Positions 23,023 to 31,508 of a DNA stretch of 64,000 nt are shown in pieces (position 1 is the first letter of the stretch; each line of letters opens with the position of its first letter). Source of the DNA: an uncultured Desulfobacteraceae bacterium (GTDB taxonomy: Bacteria > Desulfobacterota > Desulfobacteria > Desulfobacterales > UBA5852); assembly GCA_913060875.1 (NCBI GenBank), contig CAJXSL010000016.1, positions 62,001 to 126,000 on the forward strand. Reading direction: 5' to 3'. Position numbers and translations under genes: made by a program. The notes beneath the pieces were generated by a model. That model did no database searches. It worked only from the letters and a program-made list of their open reading frames with translations, and was not told where the DNA came from.

Positions 23023-24132
23023 TCAGGCGGTTTTCCCCTTCACCAGATTGTCGTGCATTTGCTGGGAATAGGCCTTTTTCTTGTCCGAGGCCGTTTTGAC
23101 GGTTTTCAAAATGGCCTTTGGTTTGATTTCGGCCTTGTCGAAATCAAAGAGTTCGACGGTCTTGTTGCGGGCGTCGGCCATGATGGCCCGGCCCACCGGC
23201 GAGCGGGTAATGACGGTGGTCCAGCCTTCTTCAGCCCCCAGACCGCCGAAGGAGATATCGGCGTACTCGGCGGAATAGTCCGCGCAGTAGTGGCAGGCGA
23301 AGCGTTTCATGAATTCCAGCTTGTCCAGCGGAATCAGTTTCTTTTCACCCGTGTTGAGTTTAAGGATCAGGTGGTCGCGCAGATTGACTTTGGCCACGTT
23401 CTCCCATTGGAACCCGCCGATGGTTTCCAGCTCCTGCTTTTCCTTGGCATCGAATAGGAAATTGCCCGAGCAGAAGAGGCCCAGGGTGTAGCGGATGGAA
23501 TCCGAAGGAACAATGCCGAGGGCTTCGATCTTGCGCAAGGCCTTGATCTGGCAGGGAGTGCCCACCAGGGCTACCCGGCGCAGGCCCTTCTGCACCATGG
23601 GGCGAAATTCCTGCACGGTGGGGGCGTAGGTCGAATAATCGTGACCGAAATGCTTCATGCCGTGGGAACTGTCGAGATAGAAGCCGGCCGCATCGATGAT
23701 TTCCTGCCGCGACGTGGCCAGCCAGGGATCCCGTTCAAAAGGGCCGGTCTGGCGGGTTACAATGGCGCCGTCGATGTGCCCCCGGTCGAACAGGTGCACC
23801 AGCAGGGCCGTCACCACGCCGCCGTCGGTGGCCTTGTCCCGTATGGCAGGATCGATGGCTCGGGCAACGGTGGTGTCCAGGACATGCCCCATGGGGGGCT
23901 CCCAGCCAGCCACCTTCTTGGTTTCCTCCTGAAGTTCGTCGATCTCGGGACAGATGCTGTAGCACAGGCCGCACTCGATGCATTTTTCGCGGTCGGCATA
24001 GCGGGGCACCCCCTCTTCACTCAGTTCCAAGGCGCCGTAGTTGATCGAGGTGCAAAAGGTCACGCAGCCGCCGCAGTGGTGACATAGGCCCGGATTCTGG
24101 ACTTCTTCAATCAGGTCATCAAAGGTCTTCAT
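23023..24132 (-). CDS. FrhB-like F420 hydrogenase/dehydrogenase beta-subunit family protein
   Basis: Iron-sulfur flavoprotein of 369 residues. Two ferredoxin-type motifs lie at the N-terminus (CHHCGGCVTFC and CIECGLCYSICPE), followed by the FrhB-type domain with KATDGGVVTALL and VGTPCQIKALRKIE. The family transfers electrons between flavin and F420 or ferredoxin; in bacteria without F420 the acceptor is usually unclear. It is the last gene of the hdr-mvhD-metVF operon, 8 bp after metF, so it may provide a ferredoxin or flavin port for the methylene-tetrahydrofolate reductase complex. Confidence 0.9.
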   Translation of the reverse strand: MKTFDDLIEEVQNPGLCHHCGGCVTFCTSINYGALELSEEGVPRYADREKCIECGLCYSICPEIDELQEETKKVAGWEPPMGHVLDTTVARAIDPAIRDKATDGGVVTALLVHLFDRGHIDGAIVTRQTGPFERDPWLATSRQEIIDAAGFYLDSSHGMKHFGHDYSTYAPTVQEFRPMVQKGLRRVALVGTPCQIKALRKIEALGIVPSDSIRYTLGLFCSGNFLFDAKEKQELETIGGFQWENVAKVNLRDHLILKLNTGEKKLIPLDKLEFMKRFACHYCADYSAEYADISFGGLGAEEGWTTVITRSPVGRAIMADARNKTVELFDFDKAEIKPKAILKTVKTASDKKKAYSQQMHDNLVKGKTA

Positions 24133-24140
24133 GTCGCCTC

Positions 24141-25070
24141 CTAAACTTCAGGCCTGGGGTAAAGACCCGACGATTCAACGATTCCCGGGACTTTTTCTTC
24201 CCATTCGATGGCCATGATGTGAAATCCCCGCACGCCTTCAACTTCTTTGAGCCGCTGGATGGACTCGATGCACATTTTGATGCCCTCCTCAGCCTGTTTC
24301 TCTTTAGGCGTGTCGGCCAGGCGCTTGACCACTTCCTCGGGGACATCCATGCCCGGGACCCGGTTTTTCATATAGCGGGCCATGCCGGCCGATTTCATGG
24401 GGGTCAGGCCGGCCATGATAGCGGTTTTTTCATGGAGGCCCCGGTCCCGTACACCTTTCATCCATTCCTCGAATTTGTCGAGGTTGTAGATGCACTGGGT
24501 CTGGATGAATTCAGCTCCGGCCGCGACTTTTTTGGCCAGACGGGCCACCCGGATTTCGAAGGGGTCGGCAAAAGGGTTGGCGGCCGCCCCGGCAAACATT
24601 TGGGGGGGGCGTTTTATGTCGTCGCCACCTAAAAATTTGCCTTCATCCCGCATGAGACGCACGGTTTGCAGCAACTGCATGCTGTCAAGATCGTGGACGT
24701 TCTGCCCTTTGCTGCAGTCGCCGAAACTCTGATGGTCACCCGACAGGCAGAGGATATTGTTGATGTCCCAGTGGGCGGCCCCCAGAATGTCGCTTTGCAG
24801 GCCAATGCGGTTGCGGTCGCGGGTCACCATCTGAAGCACCGGTTCGATTCCCATGGTTTTGAGGCGGATACAGACTGCCAGGGAACACGTGCGGCAGACC
24901 GACGTCTGGTTGTCGGTGATGTTAATGGCGTCCACATAGTCTTTGATCATTTCGGCCTTTTCGATAATAGGCGTTGGGTCGCTGCCGCGGGGAGGACCGC
25001 ATTCGGAAGTAACGGCGAAGTGACCCGCAGCCAGGATCTTTTCCAGTTTGCTCGGTGTTTTAGCTGTCAT
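24141..25070 (-). CDS. metF: Methylenetetrahydrofolate reductase
   Basis: FAD-dependent TIM-barrel enzyme of 309 residues reducing methylene-H4F to methyl-H4F in the methyl branch of the Wood-Ljungdahl pathway. Visible features: TSECGPPRGSDPTPIIEKA at the N-terminus, DAINITDNQTSVCR, LSGDHQ and GAEFIQTQCIYNLD. The start at 25070 overlaps the end of metV by 11 bp; the upstream-open frame is only metV read otherwise. Neighbouring metV and hdrCBA-mvhD point to an acetogen/sulfate-reducer type enzyme rather than the methionine-biosynthetic one. Confidence 0.95.
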   Translation of the reverse strand: MTAKTPSKLEKILAAGHFAVTSECGPPRGSDPTPIIEKAEMIKDYVDAINITDNQTSVCRTCSLAVCIRLKTMGIEPVLQMVTRDRNRIGLQSDILGAAHWDINNILCLSGDHQSFGDCSKGQNVHDLDSMQLLQTVRLMRDEGKFLGGDDIKRPPQMFAGAAANPFADPFEIRVARLAKKVAAGAEFIQTQCIYNLDKFEEWMKGVRDRGLHEKTAIMAGLTPMKSAGMARYMKNRVPGMDVPEEVVKRLADTPKEKQAEEGIKMCIESIQRLKEVEGVRGFHIMAIEWEEKVPGIVESSGLYPRPEV

Positions 25071-25731
25071 GCTGCACATCCTCCCTGACCAGTTTGCGAG
25101 GGCCTCCGGCACGATCGGAAGACCAGTCTTTAATCGGAGTGAGTTCCTCGTATTGATCGAGTTGACCCAGCAGCTTCAACCGGTCGACGATCAGCTGCCA
25201 GGCACAGTCGACATCCTTGCTGATTTCACACTTGCCGTTGGTGGAACCGCCGCAGGGCCCGTTCATGACTCGCTTGGCGCAACGGGCAATGGGGCAGATG
25301 CCGCCGGTGCGCGCCAGGATGCACTGGCCGCAGGCCTGGCAGCGTTCGGTATAGACCCCCAATTCTTCGACGGCTCCCAGGAAAGTGGTATTCAGGCCCG
25401 GGTAGATCGGCTTGGGATAGTTTTCCGCCATGAATTGCACGCCGATGCCGCAGGCGGTGCTCAGCACCGCATCCGCCCACTCGATTCGGTCTTCGGCCTT
25501 TTCGAAGAATTCATGCTCGCACTGGCGTTCGATGCCGGAATCCTGGATATCGATGTCGACACCCTCCTGGGTCGCCTTCATGCGCAACATGGACGCCAGG
25601 ATTTCAGCCTCCTTGTTGCCCCCCTGCTGGCAGACGGCGACACAGGTGTTGCAGCCGAACACCAGGACTTTTTTGTGGTCTTTGATGTACTCCCAGAGTT
25701 CTTCAAGAGGTTTCTGCTCGCCCACGATCAT
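25060..25731 (-). CDS. metV: MetV, zinc/iron-sulfur partner of methylenetetrahydrofolate reductase
   Basis: Protein of 223 residues of the MTHFR C-terminal-like family. The N-terminal half has VLVFGCNTCVAVCQQGG and STACGIGVQ; the C-terminal half is rich in cysteines (CQACGQCILARTGGICPIA, MNGPCGGSTNGKC). In acetogens MetV forms a complex with MetF and links it to Hdr-type partners. Its ATG overlaps the mvhD stop (ATGA), showing tight coupling. Confidence 0.93.
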   Translation of the reverse strand: MIVGEQKPLEELWEYIKDHKKVLVFGCNTCVAVCQQGGNKEAEILASMLRMKATQEGVDIDIQDSGIERQCEHEFFEKAEDRIEWADAVLSTACGIGVQFMAENYPKPIYPGLNTTFLGAVEELGVYTERCQACGQCILARTGGICPIARCAKRVMNGPCGGSTNGKCEISKDVDCAWQLIVDRLKLLGQLDQYEELTPIKDWSSDRAGGPRKLVREDVQHDS

Positions 25732-26237
25732 GACTGTTGTCTCCTTTCCCGCGCCTCGATAGCAAGCCGTATAGGAGAAGGACCGAGTTGCCGGATCCTT
25801 TCCGTGAATTCGTTGCAGATCTCCGCCCAGCGGGGCCCCATGGCAGCTGAGAGATTGTACATCTCCAGGCGCTCAGGATCGAGGCCGACCTTGGGCAGAA
25901 GGGTTTTCAGATGGCGGACCCGTTTAGCAGCATTGAGATTTCCTTCCAGGAAATGACATTGGCCCTCCAGTCACCCGGCCACGAACAGGCCGTCAACCCC
26001 CCTTTCAAACGCACGCAGTACGTAGCCGTGATCCAGTTTGCCGGTGCAGGGCATGCGGATGATTTTGACATTGTGGGAATAAGACAACCGCATGACACCG
26101 GCCAGATCGGCGGCGGCGAAGGCACAGTAGTGGCAGGCAAACGCGAGAATGCTCGGATCCCAGTCTTCCGGGATCTCAATTACGGGCTCAATGGAGGGAG
26201 CTTCCTCCGGAACGGCCGCTTGCGCTTGTACGGTCAT
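25728..26237 (-). CDS. mvhD: MvhD, hydrogenase/Hdr iron-sulfur subunit with in-frame TGA (selenocysteine)
   Basis: MvhD passes electrons to HdrA through a [2Fe-2S] cluster. An 88-residue frame from 26237 stops at TGA (25971-25973), but reading through it gives a complete 169-residue protein. The segment reads DGLFVAG-U-LEGQCHFLEGN, exactly where MvhD has VAGC-x3-GxCH. The other cluster ligands (ACHYC and PCTG) lie upstream, and the downstream part (LNAAKRVRHLKTLLPKVGLD) is typical MvhD. The frame ends at a TGA overlapping the metV ATG. A hairpin follows the UGA at SECIS-like distance. Selenocysteine is therefore far more likely than a pseudogene. A gene caller would wrongly truncate it. Confidence 0.9.
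25938..25954 (-). promoter_or_regulatory. Candidate bacterial SECIS hairpin in mvhD
   Basis: In the mRNA, AUUUCC and GGAAAU pair around a UGGAA loop. The loop begins 22 nt after the UGA, within the 16-37 nt range known for bacterial SECIS elements, and has G in its first two bases. The stem is short (6 bp) with a possible 2-bp extension beyond an internal loop. Confidence 0.65.
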
Positions 26238-26276
26238 GGTGATCGTTCTCCCTGTGGTAGCTGATGCGTTATGAGT

Positions 26277-29200
26277 TTATGCCTTTGCGCAGATATTTTC
26301 CGTGGCGGCATCGATCATGGCATGAATCTGGTCGTCACGGAAATTGTTCACCTGGAACGCCTTGGCCGGGCAGATCCCGGCACAGATGCCGCAGCCGGTG
26401 CAGATGACCTCATTGTGGCTCACCTTGCCGTCTTCGTCGATGAAGGGCGACCCGAAGGGGCACACCCGTAAACAGGCCAGGCACGACATGCAGATGTCCC
26501 GGTCGTGCTTGGAAATGATGCCCGAGACGCTCAATTTGTCATGGGAGAGCAGGACGCCGGCCCGGCCGGCGGCGGCCAGGGCCTGGCTGACGGTTTCATC
26601 CAGATTCTTGGGGGCATGGGCCAGACCGGCAACGTAAAGGCCCTCACTGGGGAAGTCCACCGGCCGCAATTTGACGTGGGCCTCCAGGAAAAAGCCGTCC
26701 GGGTTGCGGGTCAGCTTGTATTGCTTGCCCACCTTTTCCGTCAGGGGATGAGGGCGCAGCCCGGTAGACAGGACCACCGTATCGGGAAACAGGCGAATAT
26801 CCCGGTTGAGCACATAATCGAAAGCGCTGACCTGGATGCGGTCGCCGTCGATGTCAACCTGGGGTTTGGCCTCCGGCTCGAAGCGCACAAAGAGAACGCC
26901 CAGATCCCGTGCTTTCTGGTAGAAGTCCTCCCGCAGGCCGTAGGTGCGTATGTCGCGGTAGAGAATCGTCACCTGGGCGGCCGGCGATTTTTCCTTGATG
27001 GCAATGGCGTTTTTGATGGCATCCTGACAGCAGATCCGGGAGCAGAAGTTGAGTGGCTCTTCCCGGGACCCGACGCACTGGATCATGAGAAAGTGCCGGC
27101 TGCCGGGATCGAGGCCTTCTGCGATCTGCTTCTCGAGTTCGCGTTGGGTGATGACGTGGTCGCTTTCCTTATAGCCGTATTCTTCGGGTTCATATTCCAT
27201 GCCGCCCGAAGCCACGACAATGGCCCCATGCGCGAACTGGTCGCCATTGGCCAGGGTTGTCTTGAAACTGCCCACAAAGCCGCCGGTGTTCTCCACTTCC
27301 GTATCCAGGTGGGTTGCGATGTTAGGGTGGTTGTCTACCGCGGCGATTTTCTCCTCAACGAAGGCCTGGACATCGCTGCCGTCCAGGGTGCGGTAGACAT
27401 TGGCCGCCAGGCCGCCCAATTGATCGTTCTTCTCAACGATGTGGACGTCGAATCCCTGGTCCGCCAGGGAGAGGGCCGAGGTCATGCCGGCCACCCCGCC
27501 GCCGATCACCAGGGCCGCCGGCGTGACGTCCACGGCGTCGGTATGCACCGGTTGCAGGTGCCGGGCTTTGGCCACGTTCATCTTGACGATTTCCTTGGCT
27601 TTTAGGGTGGCGATCTCTTTCTGGCCCATGTGGCACCAGCTGCACTGCTCCCGGATGTCGGCCAGTTCGAAAAGGTATTTGTTGAGGCCGACCTCGCGGA
27701 TGGTATCCTGGAATAAGGGCGCGTGGGTGCGCGGCGTGCAGGAAGCCACGATGACGCGGTTGAGCTTGTGCTCGTTGATGATTTCTTTGATTTTTTCCTG
27801 ACCATCGGGTGCACAGGCATACATCAGGTCATCGGAATAGGTGACGCCCGGGTAGCCGCGCATCTCCTCCGCCACACCCTTGACGTCGACGGTCTGGGCG
27901 ATGTTGATACCGCAGTGGCAGACAAAGACGCCTACCCGAGGCTCTTCCTCGGTGATGTCCCTTTCCTCCGGAAGCTCCTGGACGGTGATGTCCGTGCCGC
28001 GGGCCTCCCCCAGGAGGGCCATGCTGCGTCCGGCCACGGCGCTGCCCTGGGCCACGGTTTCGGGGATGTCCTTCGGCCCCTGGTAGGTGCCGGTGACATA
28101 GACCCCCGGCCGGGTCGTTTCCACGGGGCTGAGGGTGGACGTCCGGGCAAACCCGTGGATATTGGGTTCGATGCCGAAGGTGCGGGCGAATTCGGCCGCG
28201 TCGGCATGGGGCTGGAAGCCGATGGAGAGCACCACCATATCGAAGACTTCGTTGATCAGCTTGCCGTCTTCGGCGGCATAGCGCAGGATCAGGCTGCCGG
28301 TATCCGGATCCTCCTTGACGTCCGAAATCATGGTGCGGCGGTAGACCACGCCATATTCGGTTTTAGCCCGGTCCACGTATTTGTCGAAGTCTTTGCCGAA
28401 GGCCCGCATCTCCATGTAGAACACCGTGGGCTGGATGCTGCCGTCGTGCTCCTTGGCAATGACGGCCTGCTTGGTGGCGTACATGCAGCAGACGGAGGAG
28501 CACCAGGGGTTGGCGTTGTGGGGATCGCGGGAACCCACGCACTGGATCCAGGCCACCTTGCGGGGATGCTTGTCATCGGATGGGCGCTTGATTTCACCGG
28601 AAAAGGGGCCGGAGGCGGACAGGATGCGCTCGAATTGAAGCGATGTGACCACGTTGGGCCACCGGCCGAAGCCCAGCTCCTGGCGCACCCGGGGGTTGTA
28701 GCGGTCGAGGCCCGGGCTCAGGATGATGGCGCCCACCTGCAACTGGTAGTCTTTGGCCGTGTCGTCGAAGTTGATGGCATTGGCGTCGCAGAACTTGACG
28801 CAGGCCTTGCAGCGGCCGCGCTGCAGGTAAAGGCAGTTGACCGGATCGATGACCCGGGTGTTGGGAACGGCCTGGGGCAGGAGGGAATAGATGGCCTTGC
28901 GTTTGGTCAGCCCCTGTTCGAATTCGCTGACTACCAGCTTGGGGCATTTTTTCTCGCAGGCGCCGCAGCCGGTACATTTTTCGGCATCCACATAGCGGGG
29001 CTGTTCATGCACACTGACGGTAAAATCGCCGGGTTCCCCCTCGACCGCCGTGACCTCGGACAGGGTGTGGAGGACAATGTTGGGGTGCCGGCCGACCTCC
29101 ACCATCTTGGGGGAGATCATGCACATGGAGCAGTCACCCGTCGGAAAGGTCTTGTCCAGCATGGACATGGTGCCGCCGATGGAGGAGTCCTTCTGGATCA

Positions 29201-29312
29201 TGTGGACCTTGAAGCCGCTGTCCGCCAGATCGAGGGCCGCCTGCATGCCGCCGATGCCGCCTCCTGCAATCAGTACCGATCCGCGTTTGGTGCTATTTCC
29301 CTTTTTCTTCAT
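26277..29312 (-). CDS. hdrA: HdrA-type electron-bifurcating FAD protein, double-length
   Basis: Flavin iron-sulfur protein of 1011 residues, the likely bifurcation hub of the complex. It contains two TrxR-like FAD domains (VLIAGGGIGGMQAALDLADSG near the N-terminus; ALVIGGGVAGMTSALSLADQG in the second half). Ferredoxin motifs are CTGCGACEKKCPK and, at the C-terminus, CMSCLACLRVCPF and CTGCGICAGICPA. The HdrA cysteine motif reads SCTPRTHAPLF, so here Cys is used where some relatives have selenocysteine. It overlaps hdrB by 20 bp and precedes mvhD by 39 bp. The long form is common in sulfate reducers, unlike the ~650-residue methanogen subunit. Confidence 0.94.
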   Translation of the reverse strand: MKKKGNSTKRGSVLIAGGGIGGMQAALDLADSGFKVHMIQKDSSIGGTMSMLDKTFPTGDCSMCMISPKMVEVGRHPNIVLHTLSEVTAVEGEPGDFTVSVHEQPRYVDAEKCTGCGACEKKCPKLVVSEFEQGLTKRKAIYSLLPQAVPNTRVIDPVNCLYLQRGRCKACVKFCDANAINFDDTAKDYQLQVGAIILSPGLDRYNPRVRQELGFGRWPNVVTSLQFERILSASGPFSGEIKRPSDDKHPRKVAWIQCVGSRDPHNANPWCSSVCCMYATKQAVIAKEHDGSIQPTVFYMEMRAFGKDFDKYVDRAKTEYGVVYRRTMISDVKEDPDTGSLILRYAAEDGKLINEVFDMVVLSIGFQPHADAAEFARTFGIEPNIHGFARTSTLSPVETTRPGVYVTGTYQGPKDIPETVAQGSAVAGRSMALLGEARGTDITVQELPEERDITEEEPRVGVFVCHCGINIAQTVDVKGVAEEMRGYPGVTYSDDLMYACAPDGQEKIKEIINEHKLNRVIVASCTPRTHAPLFQDTIREVGLNKYLFELADIREQCSWCHMGQKEIATLKAKEIVKMNVAKARHLQPVHTDAVDVTPAALVIGGGVAGMTSALSLADQGFDVHIVEKNDQLGGLAANVYRTLDGSDVQAFVEEKIAAVDNHPNIATHLDTEVENTGGFVGSFKTTLANGDQFAHGAIVVASGGMEYEPEEYGYKESDHVITQRELEKQIAEGLDPGSRHFLMIQCVGSREEPLNFCSRICCQDAIKNAIAIKEKSPAAQVTILYRDIRTYGLREDFYQKARDLGVLFVRFEPEAKPQVDIDGDRIQVSAFDYVLNRDIRLFPDTVVLSTGLRPHPLTEKVGKQYKLTRNPDGFFLEAHVKLRPVDFPSEGLYVAGLAHAPKNLDETVSQALAAAGRAGVLLSHDKLSVSGIISKHDRDICMSCLACLRVCPFGSPFIDEDGKVSHNEVICTGCGICAGICPAKAFQVNNFRDDQIHAMIDAATENICAKA

Positions 29313-30183
29313 GTTGCTCCAACTCCTTCAAGAGTGTTGTGCCGTCGATGAAATGCCGGTCGGTCTGCAGTTCCGCCGGCGGGAGGTCCATGGCGGCGCC
29401 GATGATTTCGGTGATGAAGAATACCGGCAGGCGCGTCTCGATGTCGTGTTTCAGACAGAACGCCTCCTGCTGGGCATCCAGGTTCATCTGGCACATGGGA
29501 CAGGTGGTCACAACGCAGTTGGCACCCCGGGCGACCGCATCCTTCATGATTTCCGCCATCAGGTTGTGGGCGGTTTCCGGATCGTTTACGGAAGCCGAGG
29601 CGCCGCAACAGGACGTTTTGTGATTCCAGTCGATGGTTTTGATTTTCAAGGTCCCCAGAACCCGTTCCATCCCCTGGGGATTTTCCACGTCGTCCGGGAC
29701 CGGAACGGCATAGGGGAAGCGGGTCAGCATGCATCCGTAGTAGCAGACCGGCCGCAGGCCCGTCAGCTTGTGGACCACCCGGTCCTTCAGGGCGCCGCTG
29801 GCGATGCGCTCCTCCAGGGCTTCCAGAATGGAGGATACCTTCAGGCTGCCGTTAATGGGGGCTGCCAGTTCGCTGTTGATTTCCTCCGCCAGGGCGGCAT
29901 TGTCCTTTATGCGCTGCTGGGCCACCAGTGTCCGGGAGTAGCAGGCCGAACAGGGAATAACCATTTCCGTGAATCCGGCCCCCTCGGCAATGCCGATGTT
30001 GCGGGCGGGCATGGCCATGGCCATGAAATCGTCTACCTTGCCGGCCGAAGTGGCGCCGCAGCAGTTCCAGTCCTCGATTTCCACGAGTTCCGCGCCCAAC
30101 TCGGAAAAGATGCGTCGGCTCTGGACATCGTAGAGCTTCGACGATTGCTGCAGGGAACATCCGGGATAGTAGGCTAGTTGCAT
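29293..30183 (-). CDS. hdrB: HdrB-like CCG-domain heterodisulfide reductase subunit
   Basis: Protein of 296 residues with two CCG domains that hold the unusual [4Fe-4S] clusters at the disulfide-reducing site. First domain: YYPGCSLQQSSKLYD, then DWNCCGATSAG and PCSACYSRT. Second domain: CYYGCMLTRF, then KTSCCGASASV and CPMCQMNLD. Both CX31-38-CCGX33-34-CXXC signatures look complete. ATG 30183 follows GAGGAG and starts at the family N-terminus MQLAYYPGC; the frame is open 17 codons further up. Confidence 0.94.
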   Translation of the reverse strand: MQLAYYPGCSLQQSSKLYDVQSRRIFSELGAELVEIEDWNCCGATSAGKVDDFMAMAMPARNIGIAEGAGFTEMVIPCSACYSRTLVAQQRIKDNAALAEEINSELAAPINGSLKVSSILEALEERIASGALKDRVVHKLTGLRPVCYYGCMLTRFPYAVPVPDDVENPQGMERVLGTLKIKTIDWNHKTSCCGASASVNDPETAHNLMAEIMKDAVARGANCVVTTCPMCQMNLDAQQEAFCLKHDIETRLPVFFITEIIGAAMDLPPAELQTDRHFIDGTTLLKELEQHEEKGK

Positions 30184-30352
30184 GGTGCTCCTCTTCTCCT
30201 CTGAGCCGTTTTCAAAACGTTCCATTTTGTGCAATTGCTGCGTCGGGGTCCCATTTTGATCCTCGAAATTAGCCTTGCATGTCTGGGGTCACAATGTTCG
30301 CCCGCCTTGGACTTGAACCAACGGAAACGCCTCGCCAATGGCTCCCTGTGCG

Positions 30353-30967
30353 TTAGTGGGTGGCACGCTGTTTTGATTTGCGCTGCAGCGCTTTGATTTC
30401 CTTGCGGCCTTTGGCCATCAGAAAACCGAAATGCATGCGCCGCAGGCGGGTCATTTCCATGCCGAGGCGGGCCTGGGTCTTGATCTCGTCCATGATGGCA
30501 CCGAACTCCCTGGTTTTGATTTTGCGCAGGGCGAACTTCATCTCGTAGGCCCCCATGAATTCCATCTCGTTCACGCGCCCCCAGCGCAGGCCGGAGCGCA
30601 CGAACGCATCGTGAAATTCAGCCACTTTCGGCTGCAGGGGTTCGAGGTGTTCTTCCTTGGCCATCTTTTTCAGGGTTTCGGTGATGCGCGCCGTCTGGAT
30701 GTCATTGGGGCAGCGGGTTCCGCAGGTGTAGCAGGAGACACATTTCCAGACCAGCTGGTTGCTCAGGGCCTGGTCGCGGTCTCCCAGGACCACCATGCGA
30801 ATGAGCAGGTTGGGGGTGAAATAGTCGGTTTCATCGCCTACGCTGCACCCGGCGGCACAGCGACGGCACTGGTAGCAAGCGGTAAGGTTCTGGCCGGAGC
30901 GCTCCATTACCTGCTGGAGGAATGGTTGGGTTTGATTGGGATTGATGGCCATTGCGGGTGCGGTCAT
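30353..30967 (-). CDS. hdrC: HdrC-like ferredoxin subunit
   Basis: Protein of 204 residues with two [4Fe-4S] motifs, CYQCRRCAAGCSV and CVSCYTCGTRCPN, that shuttles electrons between HdrA and HdrB. The C-terminal part is basic and helical. It is the first gene of the operon; 169 bp separate it from hdrB. ATG 30967 follows GGGGAGGA; a more distant ATG at 31036 has no such site. Confidence 0.92.
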   Translation of the reverse strand: MTAPAMAINPNQTQPFLQQVMERSGQNLTACYQCRRCAAGCSVGDETDYFTPNLLIRMVVLGDRDQALSNQLVWKCVSCYTCGTRCPNDIQTARITETLKKMAKEEHLEPLQPKVAEFHDAFVRSGLRWGRVNEMEFMGAYEMKFALRKIKTREFGAIMDEIKTQARLGMEMTRLRRMHFGFLMAKGRKEIKALQRKSKQRATH

Positions 30968-31508
30968 GGGTGGTTCCTCCCCCGTTTCGGAATGCGAAGG
31001 CGTCTGAAAGGATTTGATCCCCGTTTGATGACGCATTGTGAGCGTCGGCAGCCTGATCCTCGAGAGACGACCTTTGGAGGTGCCTGCAAATTACGCCGCT
31101 GGTGATGGCAGGACCGGACTGCGGGTAAAAAAAGCCTGCCAGGCCCAGAGAGCAACCATTATGCCAGACCGTGCGGGAGCCTGCGTATGTTCAATAATTA
31201 TATGAATAACAAAGCGTTGCATTGCCGGTGGTGTGTTTCTTCCCGGGGGCCGCGGGGGGCGGCGTAGATCTGGGCTGTCCCAAATTGGAATAGTTCGGGG
31301 TAAATTGCTATAAATCGCAGTGGGTTATTGGAGATATGCCATTTTGGAACGGTCTATTTTGGCAGATGTCGGATGTTGATTGGGGGAACCATTCGGCAGG
31401 CATGGGCTCAGCGGCGTTACAGGGTGTTGTCAGATCGCATTTTAGCGCAAAGAAAACAAGGCGTTTTCAGCCCTGATGGGCATCAGGGCCGAAGCGCCAT
31501 GGGGGACA
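30968..31508. other. Upstream region of the hdr-met operon with a diverged family A-like end
   Basis: No gene is supported. The part near hdrC should contain the operon promoter, but no clear boxes were found. From about 31370 the sequence ends in GGCCGAAGCGCCATGGGGGACACTA (31487-31511), similar to the right end of family A repeats; the final CTA is the stop codon (TAG on the minus strand) of the gene at 31509. The inner part has only weak similarity to the other copies. Confidence 0.4.

Follow-up and report, generated by a model that had tools for sequence, protein, structure and literature searches.

The stretch of DNA analysed here (the window, 64,000 nt) carries a cluster of seven genes in the order hdrC, hdrB, hdrA, mvhD, metV, metF and a frhB-like gene (Table 1). 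Six of them, metF, metV, hdrA, hdrB, hdrC and mvhD, are found together at 24141-31036. None of the seven cluster genes encodes a large or small hydrogenase subunit. Under translation table 11 the mvhD open reading frame is only 88 aa long. When its internal TGA is taken as a residue, the frame gives 169 aa and then reaches a terminal TGA. An earlier sequence-only reading had placed the internal TGA correctly, as the codon that splits an otherwise complete MvhD, and left the strand, which is minus, unmentioned. It was also right about the overlap of the mvhD end with metV and about the 88-residue fragment that automated annotation would yield.

Table 1. Genes and sequence elements of the mvhD cluster in the window
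Feature	Position	Strand	Remarks
hdrC-like (4Fe-4S dicluster)	30353-31036	minus	profile match
hdrB-like (PF02754 CCG domains)	29293-30234	minus	profile match
hdrA-like, 1011 aa	26277-29312	minus	NF040770 matched in three stretches; CSMC motif in its Cys form
mvhD (FlpD family, PF02662)	26237-25728	minus	start ATG at 26237; 169 residues with putative selenocysteine at codon 89
CHYC motif, codons 35-38	26135-26124	minus	codon 38 is the other selenocysteine site, in 15 relatives
internal UGA, proposed selenocysteine codon	25973-25971	minus	codon 89, context GLFVAG-U-LEGQCHF
SECIS-like stem-loop ATTTCC-TGGAA-GGAAAT	25954-25938	minus	six-pair stem, 16 nt past the UGA
true stop TGA of mvhD	25730-25728	minus	shares ATGA with the metV ATG (25731-25729)
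metV (PF12225)	25060-25731	minus	profile match
metF (PF02219)	24141-25112	minus	profile match
frhB/fdhB-like gene (PF04432, PF04422)	23023-24132	minus	profile match

An open frame past a TGA is no evidence in itself, because the window has 56 TGA codons flanked on both sides by 60 or more open codons. What lies above chance is the match of the read-through protein to PF02662 (159.3 bits, gathering score 22.3, profile positions 1-123 of 123), together with the location of the TGA in a column where otherwise only Cys is found. The genome, 5.88 Mb in 30 contigs, has five PF02662 copies; two contain a TGA, both in the codon-89 column, and three have Cys there. The comparison was extended to 84 copies drawn from 76 related genomes and this one, namely the five own copies and 79 loci (30 orthologues, 29 other loci flagged for a TGA and 20 unflagged). 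The column in which a TGA stands played no part in choosing the 79 loci. Codon 89 is Cys or UGA in 84/84 copies, which bears out the earlier proposal that the TGA occupies a Cys position of the family. The codon is TGA in 45 copies and TGC or TGT in 39, a split that is not a population rate, since a TGA flag guided part of the selection of loci.

Among the matches listed from 291 genomes of the class, every one of the best 31 (identity 64-99%) has a TGA, located at codon 89 in 31/31, and the next listed match, at 61% identity, is without one. In the named collection, the best 80 of 109 loci all combine a TGA at codon 89 with Cys at residue 38, even though one peptide used in that search had Cys at 89, a bias against finding TGA. 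These loci come from Desulfobacterales, Desulfobulbaceae and Nitrospirae and include named Desulfoluna and Desulfopila strains; some of the records are probably the same assemblies as the orthologue genomes. Five changes of the Sec89 label are needed on a tree in which many forks are unresolved. The Cys/Sec positions 35, 38, 64, 89 and 94 are all kept in the window protein and in 83/83 copies, a set from which the QmoB-type copy L005 (D at 38) was omitted. The TGA is one base away from TGC and TGT, the codons of all 39 Cys copies, and might thus be a sequencing or assembly error in a Cys codon. The probability of such an error is negligible, however: the same TGA is present in 30 other genomes and in the 80 named loci (some records probably being shared), and the codons of the SECIS-like element are frozen.

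Another explanation is that the TGA is a real stop, leaving either a pseudogene or a working 88-residue protein followed by dead sequence. Automated ORF calling does stop at this codon, and the window is rich in similar open continuations. However, the frame stays open in 31/31 orthologues, and residues N100, S130, G134 and G152-P155, all beyond the TGA, are invariant among 25 aligned proteins. In comparisons with seven relatives, codons 90-154 have a pN of 0.05-0.12, far below the pS of 0.41-0.81, so the part past the UGA is a maintained protein. A real stop is very unlikely in the face of these data. The pseudogene and the sequencing error are both rejected on account of the 31 orthologues and the 80 named loci.

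The hairpin downstream of codon 89 has a stem of 6-7 bp and a loop, UGGAA, that starts 22 nt after the UGA. The model for bacterial SECIS elements outlined in PMC13188914 has a loop of 3-9 nt, a stem of 4-16 bp, a G in the first two loop positions and a spacing of 16-37 nt. The window hairpin agrees with this model in every respect, as the sequence-only reading had suggested, and its loop conforms to the N1-G-G-N-N2 pattern given there. A search of the window against Rfam returned no match at the gathering score, and a search with the mvhD gene returned nothing relevant at E values up to 10. Among synonymous recodings, 24/384 equal or exceed the hairpin in stability; judged from the window sequence by itself, the hairpin is a weak case.

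The comparison across copies argues strongly for a SECIS-like element. All six stem pairs are present in 44/45 UGA copies, compared to 1/39 Cys copies, and in 79/80 named loci. In those UGA copies that have the majority residue, codons 95, 96 and 97 are invariably CAT, TTC and CTG. Codons 98-100 are nearly fixed in the UGA copies, whereas the flanking codons drift, and the Cys copies drift all along. Replacement of Phe96 by Tyr (TTC to TAC) is accompanied by a change of the Gly99 codon from GGA to GGT in 27/27 named loci and in the paralogue on contig C4 of the same genome, and this wobble change restores the stem pair where residue 96 is Tyr. The covariation amounts to just two independent tree changes, too few for its sign test to become significant, and the Fisher value calculated on the named loci ignores relatedness. 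The covariation is consistent with a SECIS-like element but is not significant alone.

The fold apparently has a second Sec site, codon 38, and the copies that use it serve as a reciprocal control. Fifteen copies (L121, L122, L124, L149, L150, L153, L156-L158, L160-L163, L165 and L166) have UGA at codon 38, forming a CxxU motif, and Cys at 89. A stem with at least five Watson-Crick pairs lies within the SECIS range after codon 38 in 15/15 of these copies; therefore, the element moves with the UGA. The same test found such a stem in 7/45 Sec89 copies and in 2/23 all-Cys copies. The Sec38 copies have a hairpin of their own, GGACCT-GGC-AGGTTC, about 20 nt past the UGA of codon 38. UGA at both 38 and 89 was absent from the 83 copies, from seven more and from the 80 named loci, which suggests that bacterial copies use 38 or 89, one at a time. 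Three bacterial copies with two TGA codons were considered as possible carriers of two Sec residues and were rejected, the second TGA being an apparent stop beyond the end of the domain.

The sequence-only reading had proposed a search for the sel genes, and the complete set is present in the genome: selA (616.4 bits), selB (355.6 bits), a tRNA-Sec (75.6 bits, anticodon TCA, i.e. UCA) and two selD genes above the cut-off. SelA is also above the cut-off in 30/30 orthologue genomes, all of which belong to the UGA-carrying set. Read-through of UGA is known in bacteria, and the codon might be decoded by a near-cognate tRNA or through partial reassignment. This is not what the comparison points to, however, because the column is Cys in every copy that lacks the UGA, the sel genes are in the genome, and in copies with the UGA at codon 38 the hairpin follows that codon instead. 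Decoding by a mechanism other than Sec insertion is exceedingly unlikely. The internal UGA of mvhD is thus almost certainly read as Sec, with incorporation at codon 89 itself being what we infer from the conserved codon and its element. The earlier verdict of a probable selenoprotein gains support from the sel genes, from the conservation of the UGA and from the SECIS-like element that tracks it. In both selD genes (L023 and L024, on contigs C7 and C15) the N-terminal G-U-A/S-x-K motif contains an in-frame TGA, and both products are probably selenoproteins themselves; the UxxK motif of SelD is given as a Sec site in review tables (PMC9312934, PMC13188914).

The sequence-only reading took residue 89 for a ligand of the [2Fe-2S] cluster. 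It is a candidate ligand: the column is always Cys or Sec, but MvhD has five such invariant positions, whereas a [2Fe-2S] cluster normally takes four ligands. The AlphaFold model of MvhD (mean pLDDT 85.1) confirms the fold only. It superimposes on MvhD of PDB entries 7bkb and 5odc and on ElpC of 8rvu with Z scores of 22.6-23.6 and an rmsd of 0.8-1.4 over 129-138 residues. These proteins have the same fold as the window protein but Cys at 89 in the alignments. Chain K of entry 9sfi, a methanogen VhuD/FrhD that is not among the listed fold-search matches, shows X, a non-standard residue, opposite codons 38 and 89 in the alignment. X in this chain is presumably Sec. It is at 89 as in the window protein, and additionally at 38, whereas the window protein has Sec at 89 only. 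The VhuD/FrhD family is given as CxxU with 2 Sec in the review PMC13188914. Furthermore, archaeal SECIS elements are in 3' untranslated regions (PMC11227280), whereas the window element is inside the coding sequence. Methanogen MvhD has one [2Fe-2S] cluster near the bifurcating flavin (PMC12350162), and by homology (PMC12350162, PMC5861303) the FlpD/MvhD protein of the window would also have one. The residues that bind the cluster are not named in the literature passages that cover it. One guess is that Sec stands in for one thiolate, either at the cluster or beside it, and adjusts the redox properties of the cluster.

Sec-containing MvhD was said in the sequence-only reading to be known from methanogens and deltaproteobacteria, and published accounts exist for both (PMC9312934, PMC13188914, PMC2702500, PMC5109826). 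Sec-MvhD has been reported for mvhD1, 2, 3 and 5 of Desulfobacterium autotrophicum HRM2 and for mvhD of Desulfococcus multivorans (PMC2702500, PMC5109826); these are, like the window protein, Sec-containing MvhD of Desulfobacterota, a likeness drawn from their descriptions. No statement that Sec-MvhD is part of a MetFV complex was found in the accessible literature, the subscription literature being largely outside the search. Nor did the passages available state that there are two alternative Sec sites, each with its own SECIS, or that Sec is steadily retained in the metVF-linked group.

The neighboring genes indicate the complex to which MvhD probably belongs. All six subunit families of the Moorella thermoacetica MetFV-HdrABC-MvhD complex, a methylene-tetrahydrofolate reductase, are in one cluster there, as in the window, and Moorella HdrA, like that of the window, consists of two fused HdrA-type domains (PMC9012536, PMC6085437, PMC5736913). 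The window differs in having a frhB-like gene after metF, and the Moorella MvhD was compared by family, not by sequence. Because the gene set is that of the Moorella complex, MvhD most likely links MetVF and HdrA. MvhD is therefore probably an electron connector here and not part of a hydrogenase. This assignment is drawn from gene order and homology. Among the 30 orthologue loci, 29 have metV, 25 have metF downstream and 18 have a frhB-like gene; some of the contigs end early, and at least one of the five loci without a metF match is explained by a contig end.

Alternatively, the selenoprotein could have its place outside MetFV, as a subunit of a formate dehydrogenase or hydrogenase (Mvh/Vhu) complex. 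The family name and the archaeal homologues point in that direction, as does the frhB-like gene after metF, and methanogen MvhD is described as serving several partners (PMC12350162, PMC6085437). Against this, metV matches accompany mvhD in 29/30 orthologue and 79/80 named loci, and the seven-gene cluster is devoid of hydrogenase large and small subunits. A hydrogenase or formate dehydrogenase partner is unlikely, though less so than the alternatives that concern the codon itself. With a probability of about 0.96, mvhD encodes the Sec form of MvhD, which is probably the connector in a methylene-tetrahydrofolate (THF) reductase of the MetFV-HdrABC-MvhD type.

Elsewhere in the same genome, a second hdrA-mvhD cluster (L172:2773-9345, contig C4) apparently has three selenoprotein genes close together. 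U is found in hdrA (NDCSMUILAPKL), at position 89 of mvhD (VLVGGUHIGDCHY) and in a third frame (HCARLUHAS) that was named formate-dehydrogenase-like by eye. The window copy of HdrA has Cys where the C4 copy has U. Among matches to the HdrA motif in the orthologue and named loci (L088-L117, L181-L260), U replaces the second Cys of CSxC in 3/95, so HdrA mostly has Cys there and MvhD has Sec.

In the proposed mechanism, SelB carrying Sec-tRNA(UCA) would bind the hairpin after codon 89 and insert Sec; if Sec were not inserted, translation would end after residue 88. The full-length MvhD would then act as the [2Fe-2S] electron connector of the reductase. Judging by the Moorella and methanogen homologues, electrons would pass through MvhD between MetVF, perhaps also the FrhB-like protein, and the flavin of HdrA. 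More tentatively, and with the odds somewhat against it, Sec89 may have become fixed in the MetVF-linked MvhD of Desulfobacterota and Nitrospirota, with selenium as a direct or near ligand of the [2Fe-2S] cluster that sets the entry of electrons to the bifurcating flavin of methylene-THF reductase.

Automated annotation would reduce MvhD to an 88-residue fragment, and a central complex of the C1 pathway would be left without its connector subunit. The survey yields paired Sec and Cys versions of a small iron-sulfur protein at two positions. If the interpretation is true, the two Sec sites, 38 and 89, in one fold would constitute a natural test set for the exchange of selenium for sulfur at an iron-sulfur cluster, and such pairs may help in asking why anaerobes place selenium beside iron-sulfur clusters.
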